A DNA stretch of 64,000 nt from NCBI GenBank assembly GCA_963680875.1, contig OY804577.1, positions 146,834,196 through 146,898,195 of the forward strand, written 5' to 3'. How positions within the stretch are numbered: the stretch's first letter is position 1; every line of letters starts with the position of its first letter. A program made the position numbers and the translations under genes. The notes under the pieces are model-generated. The model did not search any database, was not told where the DNA came from, and saw nothing but the letters and a program-made list of their open reading frames with translations. The stretch comes from Bathymodiolus brooksi (taxonomy: Eukaryota > Mollusca > Bivalvia > Mytilida > Modiolidae). Below are positions 1,010 through 51,857 of the stretch, piece after piece.

Positions 1010-1155
1010 CTTAAGTTCTTTAGTAAACTGGTAAGTCACAAGTGTAGTCAGGCTAGAAAATAATGGTGCCAGGAAAACGCAAACATTCCTGATGTCAATG
1101 GTGATGTGGAAAAACCACATAGCATGATAGAGGACTGCAGACGTTATCATCAATC
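1010..1155 (-). CDS. STT3A: STT3A exon for membrane helix 2 and the following segment
   Basis: 146 bp from the body-proximal acceptor ttttatcttttag (before 1,155) to the donor AAG|gtatgt (after 1,010). It reads (G)[34 protein letters not shown] and [14 protein letters not shown], matching animal STT3A right after IIGGTIYPG. Phases agree with the 20,214 exon at the start, and the exon ends in phase 0. The first 44 exon bases and their acceptor are repeated nine more times directly upstream, so the exon has ten alternative in-frame starts at 1,155, 1,209 and so on every 54 bases to 1,641. I annotate the proximal acceptor because it gives the normal protein; which one is used cannot be read from DNA alone. 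Confidence 0.95.
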
Positions 1156-1650
1156 CTAAAAGATAAAACCACATAGCATGATAGAGGACTGCAGACGCTA
1201 TCATCAATCCTAAAAGATAAAACCACATGGCATGATAGAGGACTGCAGACATTATCATCAATCCTAAAAGATAAGACCACATGGCATGATAGAGGACTGC
1301 AGACATTATCATCAATCCTAAAAGATAAAACCACATGGCATGATAGAGGACTGCAGACATTATCATCAATCCTAAAAGATAAAACCACATGGCATGATAG
1401 AGGACTGCAGACATTATCATCAATCCTAAAAGATAAAACCACATGGCATGATAGAGGACTGCAGACATTATCATCAATCCTAAAAGATAAGACCACATGG
1501 CATGATAGAGGACTGCAGACATTATCATCAATCCTAAAAGATAAAACCACATGGCATGATAGAGGACTGCAGACATTATCATCAATCCTAAAAGATAAAA
1601 CCACATGGCATGATAGAGGACTGCAGACGCTATCATCAATCCTAAAAGAT
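1111..1650 (-). repeat. Ten tandem 54-bp copies of STT3A acceptor plus exon start
   Basis: Exactly ten units of 54 bp, differing at a few positions. On the minus strand each unit is ttttatcttttag followed by 41 bases beginning GATTGATGATA and ending at the codons for ALYHAMW-like residues. The last copy (1,111-1,164) is part of the real exon. Because 54 is a multiple of three and no copy has a stop, using an acceptor n units upstream would insert n x 18 residues of the form [18 protein letters not shown], extra copies of membrane helix 2. Each unit also has an internal tctgcag that could serve as an AG. Variation is mostly T/M/A after LMI and F/S after MW. Confidence 0.95.
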
Positions 1651-1760
1651 AAAAACATTATACATTTATCTGTATAACAATTCCTAATGTCAAGATAATT
1701 TCCCAGTAAAGATAAAAACATTATACATTTATCTATATAACAATTCCTAATGTCAAGGTA
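1651..1760 (-). repeat. Two copies of the 63-bp acceptor-derived repeat
   Basis: Just under two units of the same 63-bp sequence that forms the array at 10,437-12,705, in the same orientation. On the minus strand the sequence leads straight into the outermost 54-bp unit as tgtataatgtttttatctt followed by ttag, so this is the native 3' end of the intron. The array breaks off at aaggTA, exactly where the 8.7-kb insertion begins. Confidence 0.85.
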
Positions 1761-1846
1761 CAGTACACTCCAAGTGTATCAACGATCATACTCTCAGGTC
1801 CGACATATTCCTCCCAAAATGTCTGACAAATGTCCGACAAATTTGA

Positions 1847-3405
1847 GAGTCAACACTCTCTAAGTCCGACTATTTGGTCAGACATTTTGGTCAGACGTGA
1901 GAGTGGATATTAAAAGATTTTTTTTTACATTTCTCGAGGTGAATATGTGAAACATTTTGTGATCGATGCGTATTTGTAAGCGTACTTTCTTTCCGGTGTG
2001 TGGAATGTGCGGGTATGTAAATACCCTAGTGTATTTTTACCTTGCACCATATTCGCGCCAGGAAAGGTAGCTCCTAGGTCATTATTTGTCACGCTCGGGC
2101 ACAACAGTCGTTCGATGCATAGGAGCACCCCATAATCAAAGAATTGTACAATAATTTCGAGTTACACCGTTTGTGTTTCTTTAATCTGTTTAATTTTAAT
2201 AGATCTTTCTAGTACATTTAAATTTTTACGATTACAATCGGAATGCTAGAAATATCGTAACTTTTCCGAAATCTAAACTTTAAAATCATATACGCCGAGT
2301 CCAGCCCTGGCTTGGATTTCTGGAAAAAAGTTTTCTTAACAAACCAAATTAAATTTGAGTAAAAACTCGACTTAAGTTTGCGTTTTGACTTTGTTTGTTT
2401 GGAGAAATCACTGACGATTTAAAAAAAAAAATCTGTTGTCACTTAAAACAGAGTCAGTGAGGCCGGTACGGCTATGTACCTGAATGAATAAGAGATAATT
2501 CTTTCGGAGTGTGATATCCATATAAAGGTGAAATAACGGATGCAAAAATCACCGGCTATTAAAGTTACACAATAATTATATTCCGTTTACAAATATTTCA
2601 AGTCCCTATACTTGTTCATCTGTGACGGCAATATGTGTATTGGACTAGGTATTACAGCCAGCTTGATATGAATTAATTAGCTCAGGTTACAGGTATCAAT
2701 AATGGAAGGAACATCTTGTTGACACAAATTTCCAGGTGCCAGGGGAGAACAATTATTTTTATTACTACATGTATTTGTTTGTAGGTACATTTGCAATCAT
2801 TGAAGTAATTTTAATTTCTGTAACACACACATATGTATACTGAACAAAAAGTTACACACATTGTAGTGCATTTTACTATTGCTTTTAATAATAGAATCTT
2901 TATGAAATCGTTAATACTTAACAGATATTGTTGCAAATAAAACTGACCACATTTCTCACCAAACCAATCGATTTCTGCAGGGGGGGGATTTTTCAGTTTG
3001 CGAGAGTTACTAAAGCCTGATGGTTGACAAATTTTTCTTTGGTATTTCAGTAAAATAGGAAATAAACTCGATATGCGTAACTTTTGTTTACTGCAAGATG
3101 TATTGCAACCGCCATTTTTTACTACAATCACGTGCGCATGAATTCTGGAATATTGTTGATCAAATGTTCGACAACACTCTCTAAGTCCGACTATTTGGTC
3201 GGACATCGTGGTCGGACGCGAGAGTGGATATTTAAAGATTTTTTTTTACATTTCTCGAGGTGAACATGTCAAACATTTATTAATCGATGCATATTTGTAA
3301 GTGTACTTTCTTTCCGGTATGTAGAATGTCCGGTTACGTAAATACTCTAGTGTATTTCTACCTTGCATCATATTCTCGCCAGGAAAGGTAGCTCAAAGGT
3401 CAATA
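1847..3405. repeat. Direct duplication of a ~235-bp subterminal segment
   Basis: The segment at about 1,847-2,080, starting gtcaacactctctaagtccg and ending ccaggaaaggtagctc, recurs at about 3,171-3,405 with scattered changes. Both contain a dyad of gtccgac / gtcggac-type words and the stretch acatttctcgaggtgaa. A further ~48-bp direct repeat (gatgtattgcaaccnccatt and onward) is at about 3,097-3,140 and 3,553-3,600. The space between holds no gene that I recognise. Confidence 0.8.
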
Positions 3406-3444
3406 TATAACTGAAATATTGTTGAAAAGTGACGTTTAAACACC
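3403..3444 (+). mobile_element. SINE tail fragment
   Basis: The words atataactgaaatattgttg and gacgtttaaacacc match the 3' end of the full SINE at 17,407-17,628 (gatatagctgaaatattatt, ggcgttaaaacacc). It abuts the end of the second copy of the 235-bp duplication, and no head is present. Confidence 0.7.
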
Positions 3445-3974
3445 CATAGCCTCATATAAATTATTGCAATAAAATATCGATTAAGTAACGAAATTGATAT
3501 AAATTATTTTCCAGTATATTTAGTATAAAAAGCTTGTTCTACACGTTCTCTGCGAGATGTATTGCAACCACCATTTTTTACTACAATCACGTGCGCATGC
3601 TCGTGTTTGATGGAAAGCTATAGCTATATTTAGATATTTTGTGATAATAATTTTATATTGTAAATCGATCCACCCTGTGATTTTTTTCCAACAAGATACA
3701 TTTTTTTATAGTATATATTTTATTATAAAATACAATATTGAACTGATTTTCGATAACACTTCAATCATTGAATATTGATTTTTTCGGATGTTGAATATTT
3801 TATCCCCAGAATTGCACCCCGTTAGTATACTTTTATTGCTTTATTTAAAAAAAAAAATAACACCAAGAACATCGATGATACGAGTCTTCTTATTCAGAAA
3901 TAAACCTACAGCAAAATAAAGGTATACATTTTTTGTACTGTAAACAAAATCGTTATCTTTATCTAGATTTATCA

Positions 3975-4331
3975 TTCGAAAAATACGGTACTCCTCTACT
4001 ATACTAATTTGGATTAGGTGATGGGAATTAGGTGCCATCATCAAAATAAAGATTAAAAAAATGTATTTCATGATAATGATGGCCGATTAAAATTGTTTGT
4101 CATGCATTAGCTGTCAGTTGTAATATACAGTATGTAACCAATATACAGGAAGAGCTCCTACTGTGAAGCCATCTATTTTGAGATGCCATTCAATGAAAAT
4201 AACAACCTGACCATATTGTTAAATAAGAATAAGAATTAGATAAGAAATTAAAATTTATAGAAGGCAAGGATTTATATAATTAACACATTAAGTCACATTT
4301 CATTTATTTAGCTTGGGTCAGTTATCAATTA
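3975..4331 (+). repeat. Dispersed repeat, copy 1, interrupted by a hairpin-ended element
   Basis: Matches 24,597-24,910 closely: both have gaagccatctattttgagat, caatgaaaataa and acattaagtcacatttcatt in order. The match stops at cagttatcaatta (4,331) and resumes at about 5,816 with aaaaagacaaaa, so the intervening sequence is an insertion. The uninterrupted copy at 24,597-24,975 is the empty site. No coding potential is seen. Confidence 0.85.
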
Positions 4332-5815
4332 CTAGAGGCTCCCAGGAGCCTGTAATCGCTCACCTGGTTTTCAATTTGACATCTAAAGTTGATAGAAAAT
4401 GGGGGTGTTACACATAATTTTGAAAGTGGGCCACCCAAAGATCATTTCAACTCAAATTTCTGAGCAAAAGATTTTGATGTGATTTTTATCTCATAATATT
4501 CCTAAACGGAATAAACTGGCTGAAAAAATCTCACAGAAAAACCCAGAATATATGTTAAACTACTCATTGCCATATAGCTGCAGTTAAAATTTGAGTTCAT
4601 TTTGATTTGTAATAAAGCGGAAATTGACAACTAAAGAAATTTCTATTTTTAGTAACAGCAGCCATTTTGAATGGAGGGCGGGGCTGTCGGACACAATATT
4701 GAAAGGGGACCACCCAAGGACCATCCCAGCCAAATTTGCTTTAATTTGGTTCAGCGGTTTCATCAGAGAAGATTTAAATGTGATCTTTTATCAAAATATG
4801 TCTAATTTGTATAATCAGTATAAATCGGTTGAAAGAAAAAATTCACAGAAAAACCCAGAATAGATGTTAATCTACTCATTGTCATGTAGCTGCAGTTAAA
4901 ATTTGAGCTCATTTTGATTTATAATAAAGCAGCAATAGACAATTGAAGAAATTTCTATTTTTAGTAACAGCAGCCATCTTGAATGGAGGGTGGAGCTGTC
5001 GGACACAATTTTGAAATGGGACTACCCAAGGACTATCCCTGCCAGGTTTGGTTTAATTTGGTTCAGCGGTTTCAGAGGAAAAGATTTAAATGTGATCTTT
5101 TATCAAAATATGCCTAATCGGTATAAATCGGCTGAAAGAAAAATTTCACAGAAAATCTCGGAATATATGTTAAACTACTCCTTGCCATGTAGATGCAGTT
5201 AAAATTTGAGCTCATTTGGACTTGTACTAAAGCAGCAATGGACAATTGAAGAAATTTCTATTTTTAGTAACAGCAGCCATCTTGAATGGAGGGCGGAGCT
5301 GTCGGACACCATTTTGAAAGGGACCCACCCAGGGACCATCCCTGCCAGGTTTGGTTTAATTTGGTTCAGCGGTTTCATCAGAGAAGATTTAAATGTGATC
5401 TTTTATCAAAATATGCCTAATTTGCATAATCAGTATATATCGGCTGAAAGAAAAATTTCACAGAAAAACCCGGAATATATGTTAAACTACTTCTTGCCAT
5501 GTAACAGCAGTTAAAATTTGAGCTCATTTTGACTTACACTAAAGCAGCAATGGACAATTAAAATTTCATCCCCCCTTTTTTCTATTTTGAGCTTGGCGGT
5601 CATCTTGGTTGGAAGTCGGGATCACCAGACACAATTTTGGAAGGGGGCCATCCAAGGACCATTCCACCAAAGTTTGGTTCAAATTGGCCCAGTGGCTTCA
5701 GAGGAGTTGATTAAAATGTGAAAAGTTAACGGACGGACGACGACGACAGACGACGGACGCTCAGTGGTGACAATAGCTCACATGACCCTTTGGGTCAGGT
5801 GAGTTAAAAAAGACA
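4332..5815 (+). mobile_element. Hairpin-ended dispersed element with ~305-bp internal tandem units
   Basis: Begins gaggctcccaggagcctg with gctcacctgg just inside and ends with a hairpin around agctca...tgagtt (gacccttt / gggtc) preceded by a cggacgacgacgacag purine-rich stretch. The inner words gctcacctgg and ggtcaggtgag are inverted copies. The core has about three units of 303-312 bp, each starting ttctatttttagtaacagca and containing cagccatcttgaatgg. The borders are fixed by the empty copy at 24,900. No enzyme is encoded; the frames in it are shared repeat frames. I recall very similar sequences as abundant in bivalve genomes, but cannot name the family. Confidence 0.8.
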
Positions 5816-6649
5816 AAAATAGTTTAAAAAAAATCTGTCTAATAAGTATTTACCTAAATAACGATATCATGACATATAATAATTTCTCACCGTAAATGTA
5901 TTTATTTTATTAAGATATTTATACACATATATAAGAAAAAAGATATAAATTTATTTTTTAAGTACAAAAAAATTGGAAGACGGCTTGAAAATCGAAAACG
6001 CAGAATAGTTATCTGTTTATAAGTCTTAGTAAAAAGAGTCTTGAGCAACGTTTTTTCACACCTGGAATAGGTGTATTTGTATATTATGAATGCACGATGC
6101 GACAACATGCTGAGATGGGTGATGTTTTGACAGGTAAACTGTAAAAAAAAAAAAAACGTAGAATACACTAATAAAATAATATGGAGTAGGCATTGCCTAG
6201 ATGCGAGTACAGCATTTCTGTCTGGCCAGTGTGTATATATTTGAGTGAAAGTTGATTATCACAACATAATATGAGTAGGCATGGCCTATAGAGAGGACAT
6301 TAGTATTTGAAATTAAATGATATCCCCTATGACATCCAATGGAAAGTTAAATGAAGTAGAATAGAAAAGTATGAGAAAAAAGTATGGAATCTTTTATTGT
6401 TGGACTAGGGACAGTGCAAACATTGAAGACTAACTAGTACTAGTACGCGGGTGGTATCAACCATTATAAAGCCTAAAGGGGGGTAGTAGATGCCGGTGTC
6501 TGTAAAATGAAAGTATGATCTTTTAAGTCACAAGAAGAGAGTTTTATTACGAAAATATCAATTAATGCAACCAACATACATAAGCAATATTGGCCTATAC
6601 CATGTTATGTACAGCCGATATATATTCATGAAGTGTAAATGATGAATGA
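5816..6649. other. No gene seen
   Basis: Continuation of the 3,975 dispersed repeat to about 5,875 (ataagtatttacctaaataacgat also at 24,945), then AT-rich sequence with a 14-bp A-run near 6,140. Nothing coding or structured was found. Confidence 0.5.
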
Positions 6650-6657
6650 CGTACGGT

Positions 6658-6916
6658 CAGGGCCGTCTTGTCAGCAATATAGGCCCCGGTCAAAGCAGTG
6701 CACTAAGGCCCATATCTATACAAACACTCACAGAAATAAAATTATATATGGTCGATAAAATTAAACATATATTTCTTGTATTGATACTTCCAACAAAATC
6801 AGTGTTTTAAAATTAAAAATTATGCCGTATACAACATACATAGATTAGCATGGGGTTCATTTGCTTTTGGGACCACCGGGCAACTGTCCATTGTGCCCAT
6901 ACATAAGACCGCACTG
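6658..6916. mobile_element. hAT-type MITE, 259 bp
   Basis: Flanked by a perfect 8-bp duplication cgtacggt (6,650-6,657 and 6,917-6,924). Ends are CAGGGCCGTC and, reverse complemented, CAGTGCGGTC, with a weaker inner inverted match around ggccccggtc / gcccggtgg. An 8-bp duplication with CAG..G ends is typical of hAT elements. There is no coding capacity, so it would depend on an enzyme from elsewhere. Confidence 0.8.
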
Positions 6917-6924
6917 CGTACGGT

Positions 6925-9473
6925 TACTTTAATACTGATAATGTTCATTTCGACATTTTAAAGTATGTGTATTTGGGCCAATATTATGCTATCTCCAAGT
7001 GAACAATATAGTTAATTTGAAAAGAATTATATAGGTACCGCTTTCATCAGACATATCTCTGCTTTCACATACAAAATATTTATCAATATTCAATATTTTT
7101 TTATTGGAAAAAGCACAGTAGAGGCGTGATATATATATATGAAGGCAATATTCAGTATCGAAATCATACTCTTTAAAATTATCTGTGACAAGATTATACA
7201 GACATATATTCCTTCTTGTGTAATGTTATTACCTTTTAATGTTTCAACAACAAGCTGGTTAATAATTTTATAGCATTTATTTTGGAAAGACTGAATAATA
7301 ACAGATATACATATAGTATGAACGGCATAATTAATAGTTAAATAAATAAAATTCATTGTGTCTTACTATTCTAAACCATTGTCAGCAGATGTTGGTAGTA
7401 TTCAAATATTTTGTAGGATCAGACTGACGGAAAATTTAAGATGAATAAACAAATGGGTACTGATAGAAATAATTAACACTAACAGAAATAAGGAAAAAGT
7501 CATGGTTAGAAAATGTTTGTTACTTAGCCAAAGAAATAATAAATGCAAAAATTGTATGAAAATGAAAAATGTTAATGTTCACCACAAAATGAAAAATGTT
7601 AATGTTCACCACTATCTTTTCTTATCAGAGACATATGAGCCGGTGGCAAGGGGCACATGCCCTCCCCCCCCCCCCCCCTTTGGCAAAATTTTAAAAAGCT
7701 GGATTTTTAGTATACTTTAGGATTTTTGTGATATTTATTTGGAATTACCATTATTCAACACAACTAAACCGTACGAAAGGTAGGAATTAAGTATTAATAT
7801 GAACAGGTGTCATCCCTTGGGATATTTCAGTACCGCACATTGATAGTTGGGTTAAAATTATTGATAACGAAAGGCCGGGAGCAGGTCCCTGTGATCTCCT
7901 AGTTATTCACTTATTGTACGTGTACTATAGATGCGTATTAAAAAATATTGATGACATTGTCATCTTTGCGTGTCAGTTGTGACCCAAATACGATTTCAAT
8001 GCTGACCTTTACTTGTTGCAATGTAAAATATGACGTGATAAAAAAAATATTAACATGACGATGAATGGTGGCCAGATTCGTTTTTATTTACGCATTTTTG
8101 TAGAACTTTAGGAATATTGTGGTACATGTACAAATAATCTTGGAGACAGGAATTGTGTTTGGATTCCTTTTAAACTGGTAAGTCATATATACAGTAACGA
8201 AATGTCAATATAAATCTGGAGTTCGACAGTGCAATGCAGTTGCCGAGTTGGGCGTGACATCAAATGTCCATACGTCAAAAAATGACCAGATTCGTGTTGT
8301 CTTAAGAGTCATTCACAGTGATAAAAAAATTAACAGTTGTTGTCCTTAACCTGATGGTCCATGTTAACATAAAGTCCTTTCAGTACGCCAGTGTTGTATT
8401 AATCAAAGTTTTGATTGATCCGAGTAAATATTTAGACCACCCGCGTAGATTCTGCAAAAAATAAAACAAAACTAAAACACACCAAGGCGAGTTTTTCTAC
8501 ATCGGCTGCAAATGGTCCAAAAAATAAATTTGATATTTTCTGAAAATATTGTAGTTCAAAATTAAGTCAAATTTACTCTATAATTATCTTTTATTAATCC
8601 GTAACTAGAAAGGTTTTTATCTAATAATCTGGACACGCTTGAAAAAAGTGCTGTGTTTGTTTACATGTCGTCACGATTTACGGAATTGACGCAGTTGCAA
8701 ATGAAATAGATGACGTTTTGAAATTTTTTGACTCGGGAATGAAAATACAAAATTTTAATTAAAATTCCGCGAAATGTTGTTGACGACTTTGGCCTATGTC
8801 TATGAATAACATGACGTCATGACTTTGATAGCGAGATGTCATTCTGATTAATTTAACAATGTAAGCACCTTTTATTGTCTTTTGTTACTTAAATAGCATT
8901 TTTTAGAAGTTCATGATATCATTTTAGTTTTAAAATCATTTATTGGAGACTTTTTTTTTTATTTTTGGCATTCTCTCCGGGGCTGCCAATTTTTTTTATC
9001 AATTTCCGGACGAAAGGATTTCAATCTCATCATAAGGAAGATTGTGTATTCAATGCGCATGCCCATGTTGCTGTAGAGCTCTCTGTGCTCGCTATTATTT
9101 CACCGATGTCAGGACTCTGCAGACTGCCAATTTTCAAGAAAAAAAAACCCGGGATTTACGAATTTATGACCCATTCGCCATGAGCAAAATAAAACTTAAA
9201 TTTTACTAAATAATTTTAATCCAAATTTGCCTTTAAAGAAATAAATGTATAAATCAGAATTATTTACCCGAGTTCGTTCGCCCTACATTTGGCAAACATG
9301 TAAAAGAGCAAACGCACCCGATATCGTAAACCGACAACTGTCTGCAGCAAGCGAAAGGGCCTTGGCATCGATTGTCGCGAGTACATAGGGACATATTAAT
9401 ATTCATTTCTAGTGCACTTAAAACATGGGTACTGCATGTTAATACATTTTATTCATGGATATTATTGTATATA
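6925..9473. other. No gene seen; simple-sequence patches
   Basis: AT-rich sequence inside the 8.7-kb insertion. Contains a poly-C run of about 16 at 7,662-7,678 and a 27-bp direct duplication aaaatgaaaaatgttaatgt at 7,559-7,610. Open frames such as 7,502-7,720 and 8,965-9,183 have composition expected by chance. Confidence 0.5.
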
Positions 9474-10145
9474 CAGGGGTTAAAAAATCTTGGACCACCT
9501 CACTAGCCCAGGGCTAGCATACTCCCAAATATTACTAGCCCGAATATATGAACCACTAGTCCTGGTCAATACCGTGATTTCATGAATCCGACTTGCAGAC
9601 TTGAACCCTTGTACAACATGTACAATGTATATTAGTTTAACTATCTTTCTTTTCAGATCTGGTATTGCGTTTTATTTTCACTTTTTTTCCACAGTTCAGG
9701 TCACTGTAAGGCCCAAAAAAAAATATGTGTGTTCATGGTCACATGTAAAAAAAATCTAGGATCGGTCGGCATTAAAAAAATTTTTTTTGACTATCGGCAA
9801 AACCGGAAATAGTTGTTCCCGGGTCCGGAATCCTATTCCGGTATTTCATTTTCGCAATTTCCGGTAAGCCGTCATTTGTTGAAGCTGTTTTATGACGAGA
9901 ATACGCAGTTTTTCTACCTTTTTTGCTCTCAATTTCGACAAAAAGCTAGCGGTTGAATAAATAAAACATTGCTGCTGATTATATAACATATATGAATATA
10001 AGTAGATACACGAATATTGACAAGTTTGTCAATATCCGATATATATTTTTACTAGCCCGTCGGGCATACAGCTGATTATTTCAGCTAGCCCAAAAGTGGA
10101 AATTACTAGCCCCGGGCGTCGGGCTAGGGGATTTATTAACCCCTG
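9474..10145. mobile_element. TIR element built of ctagccc motifs, 672 bp
   Basis: Left end caggggttaaaaaatc and right end gatttattaacccctg form a terminal inverted repeat. Both subterminal regions are rich in ctagccc / gggctag words (9,505-9,560 and 10,050-10,130). The flanks share only atata, so the target duplication is uncertain. A cggtcggcattaaaaaaa stretch and accggaaatag words lie in the centre; no transposase is seen. hAT affiliation is possible from the CAGGGG end. Confidence 0.6.
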
Positions 10146-10436
10146 ATATATCGCCTGTGACAGCCGTTAACATATCTATACTTTCCGTACCACTGTATAT
10201 CACTCATTTACTTCAGCTTTACTAAGATACGCATGTTTCTTTATGCACCAATTTATTGGTTAGCAGAATTTGGGGACGTTTCCTGTTTACAGTTTAACTA
10301 TCTGAGAGTGGAGACTCTCACTCCGACCTGGGAGGATTTTGTTGGACAATTTGGTCGGACAATTTTAAGAGTGAAGTCTGACAAAACTCTGTGTCCGACC
10401 TGAGAGTTTGATCGTTGATACACTTGGAGGGATCTG

Positions 10437-12705
10437 TAACATCCTGTAAAGATAAAAACATTATACATTTATCTATATAACAATTTCTAATGTCAAGGTA
10501 ACTTCCCTGTAAAGATAAAAACATTATACATTTATCTGTATAACAATTCCTAATGTCAAGGTAACTTCCCTGTAAAGATAAAAACATTATACATTTATCT
10601 GTATAACAATTCCTAATGTCAAGGTAACATCCCTGTAAAGATAAAAACATTATACATTTATCTGTATAACAATTCCTAATGTCAAGGTAACTTCCCTGTA
10701 AGGAGAAAAACATTATACATTTATCTATATAACAATTTCTAATGTCAAGGTAACTTCCCTGTAAAGATAAAAACATTAATATTTATCTGTATAACAATTC
10801 CTAATGTCAAGGTAACATCCCTGTAAGGATAAAAACATTATACATTTATCTGTATAACAATTCCTAATGTCAAGGTAACATCCCTGTAAAGATAAAAACA
10901 TTGTACATTTATCTATATAACAATTTCTAATGTCAAGGTAACTTCCCTGTAAAGATAAAAACATTAATATTTATCTGTATAACAATTCCTAATGTCAAGG
11001 TAACATCCCTGTAAGGATAAAAACATTATATATTTATCTGTATAACAATTCCTAATGTCAAGGTAACATCCCTGTAAAGATAAAAACATATATTTATCTG
11101 TATAACAATTCCTAATGTCAAGGTAACATCCCTGTAAGGATAAAAACATTATGCATTTATCTGTATAACAATTCCTAATGTCAAGGTAACATCCCTGTAA
11201 AGATAAAAACATATATTTATCTGTATAACAATTCCTAATGTCAAGGTAACATCCCTGTAAGGATAAAAACATTATGCATTTATCTGTATAACAATTCCTA
11301 ATGTCAAGGTAACATCCCTGTAAAGATAAAAACATTGTACATTTATCTGTATAACAATTCCTAATGTCAAGGTAACTTCCCTGTAAAGATAAAAACATTA
11401 ATATTTATCTGTATAACAATTCCTAATGTCAAGGTAACTTCCCTGTAAGGAGAAAAACATTATACATTTATCTATATAACAATTTCTAATGTCAAGGTAA
11501 CTTCCCTGTAAAGATAAAAACATTAATATTTATCTGTATAACAATTCCTAATGTCAAGGTAACATCCCTGTAAGGATAAAAACATTATACATTTATCTGT
11601 ATAACAATTCCTAATGTCAAGGTAACATCCCTGTAAAGATAAAAACATTGTACATTTATCTGTATAACAATTCCTAATGTCAAGGTAACTTCCCTGTAAA
11701 GATAAAAACATTATACATTTATCTGTATAACAATTCCTAATGTCAAGGTAACATCCCTGTAAAGATAAAAACATTATACATTTATCTGTATAACAATTCC
11801 TAATGTCAAGGTAACTTCCCTGTAAGGAGAAAAACATTATACATTTATCTATATAACAATTTCTAATGTCAAGGTAACTTCCCTGTAAAGATAAAAACAT
11901 TAATATTTATCTGTATAACAATTCCTAATGTCAAGGTAACATCCCTGTAAGGATAAAAACATTATATATTTATCTGTATAACAATTCCTAATGTCAAGGT
12001 AACATCCCTGTAAAGATAAAAACATATATTTATCTGTATAACAATTCCTAATGTCAAGGTAACATCCCTGTAAGGATAAAAACATTATGCATTTATCTGT
12101 ATAACAATTCCTAATGTCAAGGTAACATCCCTGTAAAGATAAAAACATATATTTATCTGAATAACAATTCCTAATGTCAAGGTAACATCCCTGTAAGGAT
12201 AAAAACATTATGCATTTATCTGTATAACAATTCCTAATGTCAAGGTAACATCCCTGTAAAGATAAAAACATTATATATTTATCTGTATAACAATTCCTAA
12301 TGTCAAGGTAACATCCCTGTAAAGATAAAAACATTATATATTTATCTGTATAACAATTCCTAATGTCAAGGTAACATCCCTGTAAAGATAAAAACATTAT
12401 ATATGTATCTGTATAACAATTCCTAATGTCAAGGTAACATCCCTGTAAAGATAAAAACATTGTACATTTATCTGTATAACAATTCCTAATGTCAAGGTAA
12501 CATCCCTGTAAGGAGAAAAACATTATACATTTATCTGTATAACAATTCCTAATGTCAAGGTAACATCCCTGTAAAGATAAAAACATTATATATTTATCTG
12601 TATAACAATTCCTAATGTCAAGGTAACATCCCTGTAAAGATAAAAACATTATATATTTATCTGTATAACAATTCCTAATGTCAAGGTAACATCCCTGTAA
12701 GGAGA
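10437..12705 (-). repeat. 63-bp satellite (~36 copies) derived from the STT3A intron 3' splice site
   Basis: Unit of 63 bp with variants lacking 2-5 bp. On the minus strand it reads tataatgtttttatctttac AG, then GGATGTTACCTTGACATTAG, then gaattgttatacagataaatg. The part before AG equals the native intron end seen at 1,651-1,690; the part after it resembles internal exon codons (LDIRN here, IDIRN in the exon). Blocks recur in order (for example near 10,700, 11,440 and 11,825), showing higher-order duplication. Frames such as 11,900-12,733 are repeat frames, not a gene. Confidence 0.88.
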
Positions 12706-13289
12706 AAAAAATTCTTAAAAATCCAGTTTTCAAATCAACAATTTTTTCTCTAGATCATAGATGTTTATTAATATATGATATATACAAACTCTGATAATTA
12801 ATTTCAAAATTGTTGGTCCATTATTAAAAAAGTTACCCATTGGGTCTCTATGTTAATTATATTTTCTAAAGTGTAAAAATCTGGATGGAGTGAGTACAAA
12901 TAGTGTAATAGCCAAGTCATGAAAATAAAATAATAGAAATGTGCTTTCAATGTATATTTCATTGCACCATGTGACATATTACATTTAAATATCAAAAGGC
13001 TACTCATTAACTGACCATGTCAATTGTTATGTACTTTAATATTTAAATGTGCTATGTCACATGGTAGTCTGTTATTTGTACTCACTCCATCCAGATTTTT
13101 ACACTTTAGTAAATATAATTAACGTAGAGACCTAACTTTTTTAATAATGGACCAAACATTTTGAAATTAATTGTCAGAGTTTGTATATATATATCACATA
13201 TTAATATACATCTAGAAAAAAAATTGTTGATTTGAAAACTAGATTTTTAAGAATTTTTTTATGAAGATTATTAGAAGTCAAACGGACTA
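12706..13289. mobile_element. Foldback element A (left-truncated), ~584 bp imperfect palindrome
   Basis: The left arm from 12,708 (aattcttaaaaatccagttt) returns inverted at the right arm ending near 13,260, with arms of about 200 bp and words such as ggatggagtgagtacaaata shared. The right end gtcaaacggacta is followed by TA at 13,290-13,291 and then the donor-derived array. The left arm lacks that terminus and joins the 63-bp array directly. Arm sequence is related to element B at 16,799-18,162 (cacatg..., agnttttacantta, ttttttattc-type words in the same order). Confidence 0.7.
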
Positions 13290-16200
13290 TACCAGGTTAT
13301 ATGGTTATTTTACAACTTTGTACATGGTTATTTTACAACTTTGTACCTGGTTATATGGTTATTTCACAACTTTGTACCTGGTTATATGGTTATTTTACAA
13401 CTTTGTACCTGGTTATATGGTTATTTTACAACTTTGTACCGGGTTATATGGTTATTTTACAACTTTGTACCTGTTTATATGGTTATTTTACGGCTTGGTA
13501 CCTTGTGATATGGTTATTTTACGGTTTGGTACCTTGTGATATGGTTATTTTACAACTTTGTACCTGGTTATATGGTTATTTTACATCTTTGTACCAGGTT
13601 ATATGGTTATTTTACAGCTATATACCTGGCTATATGGTTATTCTATATCTTTGTACCTGGTTATAGGGTTATTTTACAGCTATATACCTGGCTATATGGT
13701 TATTTTACATCTTTGTACCTGGTTATATGGTTATTTTACAACTTTGTACCTGGTTATATGGTTATTTTATAGCTTTATACCTTATTTTACAACTTTGTAC
13801 CTGGTTATATGGTTATTTTGTACAACTTTGTATGTAGTTATATGGTTATTTTACAGCTTTGTACCTTATTTTACAACTTTGTACCTGGTTATATGGTTAT
13901 TTTACAGCTTTGTACCTTATTTTACAACTTTGTACCTGGTTATATGGTTATTTTGTACAACTTTGTATGTAGTTATATGGTTATTATACAGCTTTGTACC
14001 TTATTTTACAACTTTGTACTTGGTTATATGGTTATTTTACAGCTTTGTACCTTATTTTACAACTTTGTACCTGGTGATATGGTTATTTTGTACAACTTTG
14101 TATGTAGTTATATGGTTATTTTACAGCTTTGTACCTTATTTTACAACTTTGTACTTGGTTATATGGTTATTTTGTACAACTTTATATGTAGTTATATGGT
14201 TATTTTACAGCTTTGTACCTTATTTTACAACTTTGTACTTGGTTATATGGTTATTTTGTACAACTTTGCATGTAGTTATATGGTTATTATACAGCTTTGT
14301 ACCTTATTTTACAACTTTATACTTGGTTATATGGTTATTTTGTACAACTTTGTACCTGGTTATATGGCAATTTTACAACTGTGTACCTTATTTTACAACT
14401 TTGTACTTGGTTATATGGTTATTTTGTACAACTTTGTATGTAGTTATATAGTTATTTTACAGCTTTATACCTTATTTTACAACTTTGTACCTGGTTATAT
14501 GGTTATTTTACAGCTTCGTACCTTATTTTACAACTTTGCACCTGGTTATATGGTTATTTTACAGCTTTATGCCTTATTTTACAACTTTGTACTTGGTTAT
14601 ATGGTTATTTTGTACAACTTTGTATGTAGTTATATGGTTATTATACAGCTTTGTACCTTATTTTACAACTTTATACTTGGTTATATGGTTATTTTGTACA
14701 ACTTTGTACCTGGTTATATGGCAATTTTACAGCTTTGTACCTTATTTTACAACTTTGTACTTGGTTATATGGTTATTTTGTACAACTTTGTATGTAGTTA
14801 TATGGTTATTTTACAGCTTTGTACCTTATTTTACAACTTTGTACTTGGTTATATGGTTATTTTGTACAACTTTGTATGTAGTTATATGGTTATTATACAG
14901 CTTTGTACCTTATTTTACAACTTTATACTTGGTTATATGGTTATTTTGTACAACTTTGTACCTGGTTATATGGCTATTTTACAGCTTTGTACCTTATTTT
15001 ACAACTTTGTACTTGGTTATATGGTTATTTTGTACAACTTTGTATGTAGTTATATGGTTATTTTACAGCTTTATACCTTATTTTACAACTTTGTACTTGG
15101 TTATATGGTTATTTTACAGCTTTATACCTTATTTTACAACTTTGCACCTGGTTATATGGTTATTTTACAGCTTTATACCTTATTTTACAACTTCGTACTT
15201 GGTTATATGGTTATTTTACAGCTTTATACTTGGTTATACAGTTATTTTGTACAACTTTGTATGTAGTTATATGGTTATTTTACAGCTTTATACCTTTTTT
15301 TACAACTTTGTATGTAGTTATATGGTTATTTTACAGCTTTATACCTTATTTTACAACTTTGTACTTGGTTATACGGTTATTTTGTACAACTTTGTATGTA
15401 GTTATATGGTTATTTTACAGCTGTATACCTAATTTTACAACTTTGCACCTGGTTATTTTACAGCTTTGTACTTGGTTATATGGCCATTTTGTACAGCTTT
15501 GTATGTAGTTATATGGTTATTCTGTACAACTTTGTATGTAGTTATATGGTTATTTTACAGCTTTATACCTTATTTTACAACTTTGTACTTGGTTATATGG
15601 TTATTTTACAGCTTTATACCTTATTTTACAACTTTGCACCTGGTTATATGGTTATTTTACAGCTTTATACTTGGTTATATGGTTATTCTGTACAACTTTG
15701 TATGTAGTTATATGGTTATTCTGTACAACTTTGTATGTAGTTATATGGTTATTTTACAGCTTTATACCTTATTTTACAACTTTGTACTTGGTTATATGGT
15801 TATTTTACAGCTTTATACCTTATTTTACAACTTTATACTTGGTTATATGGTTATTTTGTACAACTTTGTACCTGGTTATATGGCTATTTTACAGCTTTGT
15901 ACCTTATTTTACAACTTTGTACTTTGTTATATGGTTATTTTGTACAACTTTGTATGTAGTTATATGGTTATTTTACAGCTTTATACCTTATTTTACAACT
16001 TTGTACTTGGTTATATGGTTATTTTACAGCTTTATACCTTATTTTACAACTTTGCACCTGGTTATATGGTTATTTTACAGCTTTATACCTTATTTTACAA
16101 CTTCGTACTTGGTTATATGGTTATTTTACAGCTTTATACTTGGTTATACAGTTATTTTGTACAACTTTGTATGTAGTTATATGGTTATTTTACAGCTTTA

Positions 16201-16798
16201 TACCTTTTTTTACAACTTTGTATGTAGTTATATGGTTATTTTACAGCTTTATACCTTATTTTACAACTTTGTACTTGGTTATACGGTTATTTTGTACAAC
16301 TTTGTATGTAGTTATATGGTTATTTTACAGCTGTATACCTAATTTTACAACTTTGCACCTGGTTATTTTACAGCTTTGTACTTGGCTATATGGCCATTTT
16401 GTACAGCTTTGTATGTAGTTATATGGTTATTCTGTACAACTTTGTATGTAGTTATATGGTTATTTTACAGCTTTATACCTTATTTTACAACTTTGTACTT
16501 GGTTATATGGTTATTTTACAGCTTTATACCTTATTTTACAACTTTGCACCTGGTTATATGGTTATTTTACAGCTTTATACTTGGTTATATGGTTATTCTG
16601 TACAACTTTGTATGTAGTTATATGGTTATTCTGTACAACTTTGTATGTAGTTATATGGTTATTTTACAGCTTTATACCTTATTTTACAACTTTGTACTTG
16701 GTTATATGGTTATTTTACAGCTTTATACCTTATTTTACAACTTTGCACCTGGTTATATGGTTATTTTACAGCTTTATACCTTATTTTACAACTTAGTA
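13290..16798 (-). repeat. Donor-derived 31/51-bp satellite, distal block
   Basis: Basic 31-bp unit on the plus strand is ggttatatggttattttaca followed by actttgtacct; compound 51-bp units add tattttacaactttgtactt, and others contain ttttgtacaactttgtatgt. On the minus strand units read ATATAACCAG|gtacaaagttgtaaaataac or taAG|gtataaagctgtaaaa, which copy the end of the STT3A exon at 20,214 and its donor. Long open frames on the plus strand (up to 485 residues) arise only because the unit has no stop. A 910-bp segment is duplicated inside (about 14,905-15,815 and 15,815-16,725). Confidence 0.9.
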
Positions 16799-18162
16799 TA
16801 GTCTGTTTGGCGACTATGAAAATAGGGAAAACAATTATTTAAAAATCAGGGATTTGCTTTCTATTGCTCTTTTTAACATTTTAGGCACACATTATTTAAT
16901 ACATATCTGAGAAAAAATTGTCAAAGAAATAATTCAAATAATAAAAAAAATCTCCATAGGGCCCAATACTAATTTTATCAGATTGTAAGTAAAGGAGGCT
17001 GCCATTATAATGAACAGCATTACCTGTTCTTTCCTGTCTGTTGTTATGTCACATGGGAATGTCATATTAGGTTAAAGATTCAAGATGTTTTGAATAATTG
17101 ATAAACAATTTGACCATATGATATTTGTTTGTAAACAATTAATAACTGCTGGTCACATGAGACCCTTATATGGAAATGTCCCTTGTTATTCACTCATGCT
17201 GATTTATAACAAATTTTAAATTAACACTTAAAAAAAATGATACCAAAATAAAATAAATGCTAATTTCGTGAAAATATATTTTTTATAAATATATAAATTA
17301 AATAATATTCTTATTTGATACTTGTTTTCTTCCAAAAATTAAACAATTCATATACAACGTTAATTTCTTATAGGCAAATTAGATAAACATTTTTTTCATG
17401 ACAGTGGGGGCCCCGGATGGCTCAATGGTTTTTTAAATTTGTAAATTACAAAAAGGGTGCACTCGACTCGCAACTGCAAGTGATAAAGTTTACCAGTTGC
17501 TTGCCCATGGTCGGTGGTTCTCTCCGGGTACTCCGGCTTCCTCCACCACTAAAACTGGTCGCCATGATATAGCTGAAATATTATTGAAAGTGGCGTTAAA
17601 ACACCAAAAATCAAATATCAAAATCAAATCATGACAGTGAGGTTGAAACTACTGATATGTACTGGTCAGAATATACAACGTTTTCAGGTAATTTTGTTCT
17701 CTTTTATTAACCTCTATTCACATAAAGGGAATGGGTAGTTTGCATGTATTTTAAATGCTCCACAATCAGTTATATAATAATGTATCATCATTATTGATTT
17801 TTACCTGAACAGGTGTGAATCTAATTTGAATATTGTCCATATTTGGTATGGTCAGTATGTCAACATCTGATATAACATGCTAATGATGAAATCAGCTGAC
17901 TTGCTGTTTGTCAATACTGACCACATGTTGCTGTTCATTTCAGTAGTACTTACTCCCATGTTTGTTACATGACAAAATGACAGAATTTTACAATTAAGTC
18001 CTATGGCAAACTTTTTTTATTCTTTAATGAATTTTTTTGAAAAATTCACCTATAATATGTATTAATCAGTCCTTAATATAAATATAATTAAAAAATAAAT
18101 CTGATAACCCATTGATTTTGTAGGAATTGTTTTCCCTATTTTCAGAGTCACCAAACAGACTA
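16799..18162. mobile_element. TIR element B inserted in the donor array, with a SINE inside
   Basis: Ends tagtctgtttggcgac and gtcaccaaacagacta, each bordered by TA (16,797-16,798 and 18,163-18,164). Removing it and one TA restores the array word actttgTActtggtt with one substitution. Terminal similarity extends over about 250 bp in imperfect inverted form. No transposase frame is seen. Without the SINE and its duplication it is about 1.13 kb. TA duplication fits a Tc1/mariner-type non-autonomous element. Confidence 0.75.
17407..17628 (+). mobile_element. tRNA-derived SINE with 11-bp target duplication
   Basis: Flanked by tcatgacagtg at 17,396-17,406 and 17,629-17,639. The head ggatggctcaatggtt resembles a tRNA box A; the body has gtcggtggttctctccgggt and tccggcttcctccaccacta; the tail is gatatagctgaaatattatt then ggcgttaaaacacc and a caaatatcaaaatc 3' end. 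The central domain is of a kind I recall from molluscan SINEs. It depends on a partner LINE for movement. Confidence 0.85.
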
Positions 18163-20213
18163 TACTTGGTTATATGGTTATTTTGTACAACTTTGTATGT
18201 AGTTATATGGATATTTTACAGCTTTATACCTTATTTTACAACTTTGCACCTGGTTATATGGTTATTTTACAACTTTGCACCTGGTTATATGGTTATTTTA
18301 CAGCTTTATACCTTATTTTACAACTTTGTACTTGGTTATATGGTTATTTTACAGTTTTATACCTTATTTTACAACTTTGCACCTGGTTATATGGTTATTT
18401 TACAGCTTTGTACCTTATTTTACAACTTTGTACTTGGTTATATGGTTATTTTGTACAACTTTGTATGTAGTTATATGGTTATTTTACAGCTTTATACCTT
18501 ATTTTACAACTTTGTACTTGGTTATATGGTTATTTTACAGCTTTATACCTTATTTTACAAATTTGCACCTGGTTATATGGTTATTTTACAGCTTTATACC
18601 TTATTTTACAACTTTGTACTTGGTTATATGGTTATTTTACAGCTTTATACCTTATTTTACAACTTTGCACCTGGTTATATGGTTATTTTACAGCTTTATA
18701 CCTTATTTTACAACTTTGTACTTGGTTATATGGTTATTTTACAGCTTTATATCTTATTTTACAACTTTGCACCTGGTTATATAGTTATTTTACAGCTTTA
18801 TACCTTATTTTACAACTTTGTACTTGTGTTATATGGTTATTCTGTACAACTTTGTATGTAGTTATATGGTTATTTTACAGCTTTGTACCTTATTTTACAG
18901 CTTTATACCTTATTTTACAACTTTGCACCTGGTTATATGGTTATTTTACAGCTTTATACCTTATTTTACAACTTTGTACTTGGTTATATGGTTATTCTGT
19001 ACAACTTTGTATGTAGTTATATAGTTATTTTACAGCTTTGTACCTTATTTTACAACTTTGTACTTGGCTATATGGTTATTTTACAGCTTTATACCTTATT
19101 TTACAACTTTGCACCTGGTTATATGGTTATTTTACAGCTTTATACCTTATTTTACAACTTTGCACCTGGTTATATCATTATTTTACAGCTTTATACCTTA
19201 TTTTACAACTTTGTACCTGGTCATATGGTTATTTTACAGCTTTACACCTTATTTTACAACTTTGCACCTGGTAATATGGTTATTTTGTACAACTTTGTAC
19301 CTTATTTTACAACTGTGTACTTGGTTATATGGTTATTTTACAACTTTGTACTTGGTTATATGGTTATTTTACAGTTTTATACCTTATTTTACAACTTTGC
19401 ACCTGGTTATATGATTATTTTGTACAACTTTGTACCTTATTTTACAACTGTGTACTTGGTTATATGGTTATTTTTACAGCTTTATACCTTATTTTACAAC
19501 TTTGTACCTGGTTATATGGTTATTTTGTACAACTTTGTACCTTATTTTACAACTTTGTACCTGGTTATATGGTTATTTTACAACTTTGTACTTGGTTATA
19601 TGGTTATTTTGTACAACTTTGTATGTAGTTATATGGTTATTTTACAGCTTTGTACCTTATTTTACAACTTTGTACCTGGTTATATGGTTATTTTACAACT
19701 TTGTACTTGGTTATATGGTTATTTTGTACAACTTTGTATGTAGTTATATGGTTATTATACAGCTTTGTACCTGGTTATATGGTTATTTTGTACAACTTTG
19801 TACCTGGTTATATGGTTATTTTACAGCTTTGTACCTTATTTTACAACTTTGCACCTGGTTATAGGGTTATTTTGTACAACTTTGTATGTAGTTATATGGT
19901 TATTTTACAGCTTTATACCTTATTTTACAACTTTGCACCTGGTTATATGGTTATTTTACAACTTTGTACTTGGTTATATGGTTATTTTGTACAACTTTGT
20001 ATGTAGTTATATGGTTATTTTACAGCTTTGTACCTTATTTTACAACTTTGTACCTGGTTATATGGTTATTTTGTACAACTTTGTACTTGGTTATATGGTT
20101 ATTTTACAGCTTTGTACCTTATTTTACAACTTTGCACCTGGTTATATGGTTATTTTGTACAACTTTGTATGTGGTTATTTGTACACGGAAACAGTTAATT
20201 TACAGCTTTATAC
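18163..20213 (-). repeat. Donor-derived satellite, block adjoining the STT3A donor
   Basis: Same 31/51-bp family as 13,290-16,798 and continuous with it before element B landed. Its proximal end is the functional donor itself: exon end ATATACCCAG, then gtataaagctgtaaattaac, a 26-of-30 match to the array unit. Potential donors with CAG|GTA, CAG|GTG or AAG|GTA context occur about every 31-51 bases over the block. Confidence 0.9.
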
Positions 20214-20396
20214 CTGGGTATATTGTTCCTCCTATAATTCTTCCAAGAGGATACCATGCTCTGTCATCAAACCAGTTGTGAAATTTATAGAATCCTTCTT
20301 CAGTTAAAAACCTAGTGGTTCTGTAGTTAAAGTAGGGATCAAACTCATGAATAACACTCTCAAATCTCAATACAGAAAACAGTCTGGTTGAAAAGG
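20214..20396 (-). CDS. STT3A: STT3A exon with the catalytic EFDPYFNYR loop
   Basis: 183 bp from the acceptor ctatttcag (before 20,396) to the donor CCAG|gtataaag (after 20,214). It completes Ser37, then reads [44 protein letters not shown] and IIGGTIYP, nearly identical to animal STT3A. Asp56 in EFDPYFN is the conserved first-loop acidic residue that binds the catalytic metal and the acceptor Asn in this family; [12 protein letters not shown] is the invariant stretch leading into membrane helix 2. The split Gly98 codon (G|GA) matches the next exon. The donor lies directly on the edge of a 31/51-bp satellite whose units copy this junction. A second AG inside the exon (before 20,383) gives a shorter version but would drop SFSTR, so the outer acceptor is chosen. 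Confidence 0.96.
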
Positions 20397-29408: not shown

Positions 29409-29521
29409 ACAGTATGGCTGCTATAGTAAGAACCACCATCTTTAACATGGTGTCTTGTTTTTCTGACGACATCCTGCATAACCAACTTAGACCCCATGGT
29501 ATCTGTGATGTCTTCATTTTC
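29409..29521 (-). CDS. STT3A: STT3A N-terminal coding exon
   Basis: STT3A is the catalytic subunit of the translocon-associated oligosaccharyltransferase; it transfers the dolichol-linked glycan to Asn in N-X-S/T sequons in the ER lumen. This exon has an acceptor (ttttaatttcag) just before 29,521, the ATG at 29,517 and a consensus donor gtaagt from 29,408. It encodes 36 residues plus one base (phase 1). The end of the reading, SSEKQDTMLKMVVLTIAAIL, matches the animal STT3A segment that enters the first membrane helix, where metazoan homologues read EKQ(D/E)xLLK followed by a hydrophobic run and LSFSTR. The second ATG (CRM-SSEKQ) is an alternative start giving a length nearer to vertebrate STT3A. 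A second open frame (ENEDITDTMGSK...) exists but does not join the next exon as STT3A. Confidence 0.93.
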
Positions 29522-29605: not shown

Positions 29606-31690
29606 TTGGTAACATACTGACAGCGATGGCATTGCACAACACAGTCAGATACTGGTAAACAATGATGTCATTATACAACACAGTCAGATACTGGTAAACA
29701 GTGATGTCATTATACAACACAGTCAGATACTGGTAAACAGTGATGTCATTATACAACACAGTCAGATACTGGTAAACAGTGATGTCATTATACAACACAG
29801 TCAGATACTGGTAAATAGTGATGTCATTATACAACACAGTCAGATACTGGTAAACAATGATGTCATTATACAACACAGTCAGATACTGGTAAACAGTGAT
29901 GTCATTATACAACACAGTCAGATACTGGTAAACAGTGATGTCATTATACAACACAGTCAGATACTGGTAAACAGTGATGTCATTATACAACACAGTCAGA
30001 TACTGGTAAACAGTGATGTCATTATACAACACAGTCAGATACTGGTAAACAGTGATGTCATTATACAACACAGTCAGATACTGGTAAACAGTGATGTCAT
30101 TATACAACACAGTCAGATACTGGTAAACAATGATGTCATTATACAACACAGTCAGATACTGGTAAACAGTGATGTCATTATACAACACAGTCAGATACTG
30201 GTAAACAGTGATGTCATTATACAACACAGTCAGATACTGGTAAACAGTGATGTCATTATACAACACAGTCAGATACTGGTAAACAGTGATGTCATTATAC
30301 AACACAGTCAGATACTGGTAAACAGTGATGTCATTATACAACACAGTCAGATACTGGTAAACAGTGATGTCATTATACAACACAGTCAGATACTGGTAAA
30401 CAATGATGTCATTATACAACACAGTCAGATACTGGTAAACAGTGATGTCATTATACAACACAGTCAGATACTGGTAAACAGTGATGTCATTATACAACAC
30501 AGTCAGATACTGGTAAACAGTGATGTCATTATACAACACAGTCAGATACTGGTAAACAGTGATGTCATTATACAACACAGTCAGATACTGGTAAACAGTG
30601 ATGTCATTATACAACACAGTCAGATACTGGTAAACAGTGATGTCATTATACAACACAGTCAGATACTGGTAAACAGTGATGTCATTATACAACACAGTCA
30701 GATACTGGTAAACAATGATGTCATTATACAACACAGTCAGATACTGGTAAACAGTGATGTCATTATACAACACAGTCAGATACTGGTAAACAGTGATGTC
30801 ATTATACAACACAGTCAGATACTGGTAAACAGTGATGTCATTATACAACACAGTCAGATACTGGTAAACAGTGATGTCATTATACAACACAGTCAGATAC
30901 TGGTAAACAGTGATGTCATTATACAACACAGTCAGATACTGGTAAACAGTGATGTCATTATACAACACAGTCAGATACTGGTAAACAATGATGTCATTAT
31001 ACAACACAGTCAGATACTGGTAAACAGTGATGTCATTATACAACACAGTCAGATACTGGTAAACAGTGATGTCATTATACAACACAGTCAGATACTGGTA
31101 AACAGTGATGTCATTATACAACACAGTCAGATACTGGTAAACAGTGATGTCATTATACAACACAGTCAGATACTGGTAAACAGTGATGTCATTATACAAC
31201 ACAGTCAGATACTGGTAAACAGTGATGTCATTATACAACACAGTCAGATACTGGTAAACAATGATGTCATTATACAACACAGTCAGATACTGGTAAACAG
31301 TGATGTCATTATACAACACAGTCAGATACTGGTAAACAGTGATGTCATTATACAACACAGTCAGATACTGGTAAACAGTGATGTCATTATACAACACAGT
31401 CAGATACTGGTAAACAGTGATGTCATTATACAACACAGTCAGATACTGGTAAACAGTGATGTCATTATACAACACAGTCAGATACTGGTAAACAATGATG
31501 TCATTATACAACACAGTCAGATACTGGTAAACAGTGATGTCATTATACAACACAGTCAGATACTGGTAAACAGTGATGTCATTATACAACACAGTCAGAT
31601 ACTGGTAAACAGTGATGTCATTATACAACACAGTCAGATACTGGTAAACAGTGATGTCATTATACAACACAGTCAGATACTGGTAAACAA
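29606..31690 (-). repeat. 39-bp satellite, ~53 copies, with 273-bp higher-order period
   Basis: Plus-strand unit acacagtcagatactggtaa followed by acagtgatgtcattatac-a-. The variant aacaatgatg recurs at spacings of 5, 7, 7, 8, 7, 7, 6 and 5 units, i.e. mostly 273 bp. The 39-bp length keeps one frame open for 697 residues (YNDITVYQYLTVL repeated), but there is no other protein feature. The array lies upstream of the STT3A start exon, in its 5' intron or promoter-side DNA. Confidence 0.92.
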
Positions 31691-37943: not shown

Positions 37944-38569
37944 CCACACATGTGGAAAATACTAATACTATAGTCAACAAGGCCCAATGGCAATGAATGC
38001 ACATATTTTGAGTATCTGGAGCTAGCTGTAGAATGGAAAGAATATTTGTAACAATTATGCACAGAAAAAATACTCGATATTGTGGCAGTACAAACACGTT
38101 TTATAGGCCCTGTGTTCAAAACATGATCAGACATTACTGCCACATCACCAAACGAGACCAATCTGTATAGTCTATTTTTATGATGACAATACATAAATTT
38201 TATCGAACCGATTGAAAAATTGAAGAATCGTGTTCAGATAAATCACATAGATATATTTCATTTTCTAAAATAATCGAATGTACGCTGAATACATTACTTT
38301 TGAAATATCACACACCTTTCGCAAACCGGCTGATGAATTCAACTTCCGGTAGAAATCATCTAAACGTTTGTTATTTTTATTGGATAATGTGTAGATGTTA
38401 CAAAGGCGATAATTGGTTGATTTTAATGTTCCATTTCGGCCTCCTTAAAATATTGGAGCACTCTATTTGGATAATTAAGATATCCTCCAAAAAACCTTAT
38501 AAAGGGTTAAAATAATATCAATTTTTTATGTTCCTATGGAAACGTTACATTTATTTAACAATCGACACA

Positions 38570-39179
38570 TGTACATCTGGCAAACCAGAAGACTGGGCAA
38601 AATTTAAAGCTACAAGGAAGACCATCAAAAAGACGATCGAATGTGAACACAACAAATACATAGCAGATATCCTTAACATCGTAGATGACATCACAGAGGA
38701 TCAGCAGACAAGAACTAGTATTAGAAAGAAATTTTGGAGATACATTAAATCTAAGAAACAGGAAAGTAGTGATGTAGCCACCTTGGAAGTAGATGGATGC
38801 TACATGGAGGATATAGCAAATCTAAGGCGGAAGCACTAAACAAACAATTCCAATCAGTTTTTACTGACGAAGACATGTCAACTTTACCTCAAATGGGAAC
38901 AAGCAAGACACAGGACATCTCAAGTATCCAGATAGAGCCTGGAAAAGGGAATAGCTAAATTACTATACAAGCTAAACATCAACAAAGCTAGTGGTTCAGA
39001 TACAATCTCGTGTAGAATACTCCGGGAAGCCGCAGATGAAATTGCACCATACCTAAAATTTATTTTTGAAAAATCATTGGAATTGAAAAATGTACCATAT
39101 GACTGGAGAACAGCCAACATCACTGCTCTATTCAAAAACGGAGATCGATCAAAACCTGTCAACTATAGACCAGTCTCTT
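38570..39179 (+). pseudogene. LINE reverse transcriptase, 5' half (Jockey/CR1-like), broken
   Basis: Encodes the end of the endonuclease-RT linker and the start of the RT domain: KPEDWAKFKATRKTIKKT, KKFWRYIKSKKQESSDVATL, then after a frameshift near 38,830 NKQFQSVFTDEDMSTLPQMG, after another near 38,950 LNINKASGSDTISCRIL and YDWRTANITALFKNGDRSKP, ending VNYRPVS. The endonuclease domain is missing. It stops at 39,179, where a transposon was inserted; the rest of the RT is at 47,847. Inactive by frameshifts. Confidence 0.88.
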
Positions 39180-39189
39180 CCCAGCTAGC

Positions 39190-51510: not shown

Positions 51511-51857
51511 GTATTTATTTTTATCAATGTGTGACGTAAAAGTGTCTTTGACATTTACTTCACTGAAGTTGGTACTGCTTTGACAACTATTTTACTTATT
51601 TTGTTCCAGTATTGTTATAAATACTGTTATAGTGACAGCCGGAACCTTTGAGCCGTAATGAAAGCGGGAGGTTTGCCGCTTTAAAATCTGATTCAACCCA
51701 CAATTTCTTTAGAAATGCCTGTACCAAGTCAGGGTCATTACGGTTTTCACAGTTTTCCGGTTGTTGACTGATTTTGTCTGTTTATATAATTATGAGTTTT
51801 GACTTTCCCTTTGTAAGATTGTTCGGAGTTCGGTAATTTTGTTATTACTCTTATTTA
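51511..51857 (+). repeat. Macro-satellite spacer, full copy 1 (347 bp)
   Basis: Non-repetitive block with tgtgacgtaaaagtgtcttt, cagccggaacctttgagccg, gaaagcgggaggtttgccgc, atgcctgtaccaagtcaggg and gttcggagttcggtaatttt. I recall similar words (atgcctgtaccaagtcagg preceded by ttgccgct) from abundant bivalve repeats, but cannot verify. Stops occur in all frames. Confidence 0.85.

Follow-up and report, generated by a model that had tools for sequence, protein, structure and literature searches.

Tandem arrays growing out of exon-intron boundaries have been described in amphioxus, in birds and in humans. In the amphioxus 'mirages', exon-intron boundaries have been duplicated in tandem in the manner of a minisatellite, the genes concerned being Adh3, the globins BflGb6 and BflGb9, TnC and PGBD5; their copy number is unstable (PMC3087553, PMC3902484), and reverse-transcription polymerase chain reaction suggests regular splicing (PMC3087553). 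'Exon stuttering' has been reported from 115 chicken genes, where it affects 236 introns (190 on dot chromosomes), with 1-44 copies, a span of 112-23,555 base pairs (bp) and an exon part of 20-187 bp, and its authors associate it with GC-rich sequence and dot chromosomes (PMC12954441). In human segmental duplications, internal tandem repeats have been found where exon meets intron (PMC2812944). Here we describe a 64,000-nucleotide stretch of contig OY804577.1 (the window), in which arrays lie at either end of a 19,058-bp intron of STT3A (1156..20213; exons, intron and arrays all read on the minus strand). The account we favour, and hold to be probable, is that the arrays are boundary-seeded, of the kind known as mirages or exon stuttering, and would have arisen by microhomology-primed tandem duplication over both splice junctions; most likely, the two ends of this intron show a mirage at a far-advanced stage.

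An earlier note on this DNA knew of no described case in which each splice site of one intron had seeded a satellite; comparable arrays are nevertheless on record, as amphioxus mirages (PMC3087553, PMC3902484) and bird exon stuttering (PMC12954441). Mirages share with the present locus units that span a boundary, carry splice signals and occupy the intron next to an exon that is itself intact, and amphioxus has duplications of donor as well as of acceptor boundaries. In avian stuttering, as here, an exon edge together with its donor or acceptor is copied in tandem through the adjacent intron, locally and with the exon left intact, and the human repeats likewise show minisatellite growth at an exon-intron boundary changing gene structure (PMC2812944).

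On the acceptor side, derivation of an array from the splice junction is beyond reasonable doubt. The 54-bp array (1111..1654; 10.1 copies at 97% by Tandem Repeats Finder, TRF; GC 0.38) has a unit that runs across the junction 1156|1155 and consists of 9 intron bases, ATCTTTTAG, followed by the first 45 bases of the downstream exon, exon B. The acceptor junction motif occurs 10 times in tandem, the exon's own copy included, and each of the nine extra copies shares 51-53 of its 54 positions with the exon copy (1-3 differences each), which bears out the earlier claim that this junction seeded the array. The unit lies over an exon-intron boundary, as in mirages, and copies an exon edge with its splice site locally into the neighbouring intron, as in stuttering. 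Copies join inside a T run; such a run precedes ATCTTTTAG on the intron side and follows GTGG on the exon side, an arrangement that would fit a tandem duplication primed by TTTT. The outermost of the ten acceptors lies at 1642, and upstream of it stands a partial unit of a second, 63-bp array.

The gene itself is identified by its flanking exons. Exon A, upstream of the intron (20214..20396), matches human STT3A with E 2.1e-36, and exon B, downstream (1010..1155), matches STT3A with E 2.6e-19, with support from a frame check; a further exon bearing the start codon (exon 1, 29409..29521, located with tblastn) is separated from exon A by intron 1. Joined, exons 1, A and B give 438 bases in a single open frame of 146 amino acids. 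Against solved proteins, STT3B scores poorer (E 2.1e-28 for exon A, 8.2e-8 for exon B), and on sequence comparison exons A and B are confirmed as STT3A rather than STT3B by their better match to solved STT3A. The top six rows among 120 listed relatives of the 146-residue product are molluscan (Biomphalaria, two Haliotis, two Sinanodonta entries and Solemya), and the motif GGTIYPG-LM, which spans the exon A/exon B junction, is present in 120 of the 120 listed. Since the end of exon A encodes part of GGTIYPG, its bases are not array-derived and the exon predates the arrays. Both exons are intact, open and conserved, and the array copies are confined to the intron. Another tandem array, with a 39-bp unit in ~53 copies (29620-31689), lies 98 bp upstream of the start-codon exon; its unit ends in an acceptor-like TTTACCAG, the exon edge not being part of the unit.

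At the other end of the intron, the sequence makes it likely, though not certain, that an array was seeded by the donor junction. This 31/51-bp array, delimited by repeat and pattern scans, lies in two parts (I, 13290..16797; II, 18167..20178) and comes to ~5.5 kb once an internal 1.37-kb transposon is left out, in agreement with the length given in the earlier note, which had named the donor junction as its founder-like edge. The 31 bases over the junction 20214|20213, AATATACCCAG|GTATAAAGCTGTAAATTAAC, agree with array units at as many as 27 of 31 positions, exceeding the background maximum of 19 of 31 (61,138 windows on both strands of 1-1000 and 20401-50000). The last ~11-14 bases of exon A form the exon share of the putative founder, and the intron's opening 35 bases (20179..20213), the first 20 of which belong to the founder-like 31-mer, separate the junction from part II. 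AAC stands before the 31-base stretch in the exon and again at its end in the intron, 31 bases apart; 31 is also the commonest unit spacing (66 cases), followed by 20 (55) and 33 (39). Because the distance between the two AACs equals this commonest spacing, and because the exon bases are conserved in all 120 listed relatives, we judge a donor origin likely. Part I includes a recent 910-bp duplication (14891-16751), in which windows of 200 bp, taken between 14891 and 15641, are identical at 197-200 of 200 positions at this offset, as would be expected of unequal exchange; in this one sequence, it hints at an array length that may be unstable between alleles.

The monomers keep to this locus as far as the window extends. 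The donor pattern, allowing up to 3 mismatches, has 154 matches in the window, 153 in the arrays and 1 at the junction, and the 63-bp pattern has 37, all inside the intron; monomers at unrelated loci, which the earlier note had named as evidence that would sever the link with STT3A, are absent from the window outside this intron and its junction. In a collection without mollusc genomes, which gives the results little weight, the donor pattern had no match in viral contigs, and a 20-base acceptor pattern matched two prokaryote-titled genome contigs, taken as chance.

The 63-bp array comprises ~1.7 copies on the exon side (1647..1759), adjoining the outermost 54-bp acceptor, and a main part (10438..12704; TRF 36.4 copies, 94%). 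Its unit carries an acceptor-like TTTTTATCTTTACAG|G, and the acceptor-like TTACAGG occurs 37 times in the main part. GC content of the 63-bp and donor arrays is 0.27-0.28. Full-length units number 26 of 35, and most of their columns are invariant, a variation too low to speak for or against constraint.

Several points weigh against seeding at both junctions. For the 63-bp unit, a content of exon bases is unsupported, since equal scores are reached by 66 of 665 TAG-initial and 19 of 107 TAGG-initial controls; with an exon match no better than controls, we count this array as amplified intron end and not as a junction array. Of the earlier claim that the acceptor junction founded it, the physical part stands, the array abutting the outermost acceptor, and the exon bases do not; the analysis supports an amplification of the intron's end only. 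The related claim that units throughout hold exon plus intron bases stands for the 54-bp array and probably for the donor array, and fails for the 63-bp unit. For the donor array, the 27/31 match is mostly intron sequence, the exon share being short and moderately significant: of the 13 bases preceding CAG, 9 agree, which is equalled by 8 of 673 control 13-mers before CAG, and by 8-mers the exon part is equalled by 11 of 675 control words before CAG (p ~0.012-0.016). Together with a simple 31-bp stretch at the array's far end (13.3-13.8 kb), these values are what would be seen if only the 54-bp array were a true junction array and the donor array had arisen within the intron or elsewhere and then reached the splice site, its exon match being chance. 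We regard this as unlikely, because the distance between the AACs equals the commonest unit spacing, exon-side homology extends past the CAG of a normal donor, and the monomer occurs nowhere else in the window.

The main point against concerns the 54-bp array. If the 3' splice site is taken to be the first AG after the branch point, the outermost rather than the exon-proximal of its acceptors might be favoured; were the outermost one preferred, the array would be wholly or partly exonic, with upstream acceptors used and up to nine 18-residue hydrophobic segments added to the protein. The frame 995-1657 is indeed open across all ten copies in the STT3A frame, every one of the ten acceptors computed as keeping that frame without a stop. 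The acceptor is identical in every copy, and only the outermost (1642) retains original intron upstream. However, a stop-free 54-bp unit stays open throughout by chance alone, an insert at this place is lacking from all 120 STT3A proteins listed (candidates longer than 1.75 times the query being ineligible), 3 of 4 variable sites among the copies alter a residue, and the enzyme would not be expected to survive nine additional membrane segments. An exonic array has very little probability in our estimate. Only a little less remote is the idea that the ten in-frame acceptors are in use as a ladder, so that STT3A transcripts would carry between 0 and 9 additional membrane-like segments of 18 residues each, or that individuals differ in this respect through array length; if true, this would be a protein-length polymorphism from a satellite grown out of a splice site. 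Under boundary seeding, which we continue to prefer, the normal mRNA would use the two exon-proximal sites.

Almost the whole intron is accounted for by arrays and mobile elements. By a partition whose boundaries were set by hand from TRF repeats, inverted ends and junction matches, and are accurate to a few bases, the arrays take up 491 bp (54-bp array), 113 + 2,267 bp (63-bp array) and 3,508 + 2,012 bp (31/51-bp donor-type array). The rest consists of elements of 8,678, 556 and 1,369 bp, a 29-bp stretch resembling element 3 and the 35 bp beside the donor, and only 35-64 bp of the 19,058 lie outside arrays and mobile-element sequence. Element 1 (1760..10437), with inverted ends at 1759-1805 and 10392-10438 and a TA target, sits within the 63-bp array; when its flanks were joined at TA by script, a 63-bp unit was restored, with one gap and 45 matches in 46 aligned positions, and it follows that the 63-bp array formerly extended to the acceptor. 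Element 2 (12705..13260) is a long imperfect palindrome, like a miniature inverted-repeat transposable element, with inverted arms 95-96% alike. Next to it lies the 29-bp stretch (13261..13289), which resembles the right end of element 3, none of 1000 shuffles aligning equally well. Element 3 (16798..18166; inverted ends, TA target) is the 1.37-kb transposon within the donor array, and once its flanks are joined, agreement with the array is 47 of 50 positions at the TA itself and as high as 49 of 50 close by. Within the 8.7 kb of element 1, no long coding frame was seen (1760-10437); it contains a 312-bp tandem repeat (4522-5559), whose open reading frame (ORF) is similar to one at 34034-34384. 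Long near-identical arrays are difficult to assemble, and array lengths or the double occurrence might be unreal; yet the units show graded divergence, two transposons lie inside arrays with restorable empty sites, and the exons on both sides are intact, so that an assembly artefact is scarcely credible.

A sequence of events consistent with this structure would begin with a tandem duplication over each splice junction. Short direct repeats would have primed it, TTTT in the case of the 54-bp unit and AAC in that of the 31-bp unit. Unequal exchange or slippage would then have enlarged the arrays, and TA-targeting transposons would have inserted into them afterwards. Duplication of a whole junction should be nearly harmless, the exon retaining an intact junction while the surplus copies become intron, and for this reason the intron could expand from both ends.

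The abundance of splice-like sites had led to the suggestion that they serve as splicing decoys, permit stepwise removal of the intron or make splice choice robust. More than a hundred donor-like sites, as had been claimed, are present, with GT kept in 144 of 180 donor unit cores; scored with a simple U1 consensus, 116 sites in the 5,520-bp array equal or exceed the true donor, while 27,730 bp from other parts of the window contain 232 such sites on one strand and 241 on the other, an enrichment of ~2.5-fold for the array. With the 37 acceptor-like sites of the main 63-bp array, these numbers count in favour of selection for decoys, or for buffering or control of STT3A splicing with nonsense-mediated decay of mis-spliced forms. 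On the other hand, copying of a donor would by itself yield such a density, the remaining 36 of 180 cores have lost GT, which speaks against constraint, and the 63-bp units vary too little to reveal any. Extra donors and nearly all 63-bp acceptors also run into early stops: donor read-through is computed to give PGIKL-stop, and 36 of the 37 TTACAG acceptors of the 63-bp array reach a stop at the fifth codon, the other one at a later codon. Selection of this kind is, in our estimate, very improbable, and no selected function is needed to explain the arrays. Recursive-splice (ratchet) sites were considered and rejected, as acceptor units continue with GG or GA and never with GT (GATTG after the 54-bp acceptors, GGATG or GGAAG after the 63-bp ones).

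Set against the described systems, the locus also differs. The amphioxus mirages compared have few units (6 and 3 in two BflGb6 haplotypes) at one boundary each, whereas both junctions of one intron are involved here, with about 180 donor units and transposons within the arrays, in a probable mollusc. Unlike stuttered avian introns, the arrays have GC contents of 0.27-0.28 (donor, 63-bp) and 0.38 (54-bp), a shorter donor exon part (11-14 bp) and more units; the structure works like stuttering yet falls outside the avian set, whose GC-rich, dot-chromosome setting is not that of this locus. The human repeats are linked to new introns in young paralogues, (PMC2812944), whereas the present case is the enlargement of an intron that a conserved gene already had. 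Amplification of both junctions of one intron has no counterpart in the accessible mirage and stuttering literature, the first mirage report and supplements (chicken gene list) aside, and boundary arrays in molluscs are absent from the titles and abstracts of the open-licence matches listed, few of the queries being mollusc-specific. The probable mollusc host, the AT-rich donor and 63-bp arrays and the involvement of both ends of one intron appear to be new.

Other repeats and frames lie elsewhere in the window. A 122/243-bp tandem repeat (39267-39789) is rich in AACGT-like words; a 75-bp satellite (50142-57924) has the consensus end GGGTTAGGGTTAG, with two telomere-like hexamers per unit; and a 74-bp satellite (57927-64000; at least 82 copies, GC 0.48), which we take to be reminiscent of Mytilus, continues past the window end. 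Five window ORFs were searched against Pfam, with STT3 found in that of the 54-bp array (its best stretch falling within the exon part), a reverse transcriptase domain (RVT_1) in another (47985-48425) and no match in three, among them the neighbouring ORFs 38516-39286 and 48789-49094. No relatives of the reverse transcriptase were found in viral contigs, in a collection without mollusc genomes.

With these observations, boundary-seeded arrays, known from lancelets and birds, come to include a probable mollusc and AT-rich DNA that also carries transposons; high GC, which has been put forward as driving the process in birds, would then not be required. The process can run far, leaving 35-64 bp of the intron outside arrays and mobile elements. 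If both intron ends amplify harmlessly, junction-spanning duplication would be a splice-neutral path to long introns, one that can be screened for in any genome, and the ladder of ten equal in-frame 54-bp acceptors is a natural experiment on the choice that the spliceosome makes when the 3' splice sites on offer are identical.

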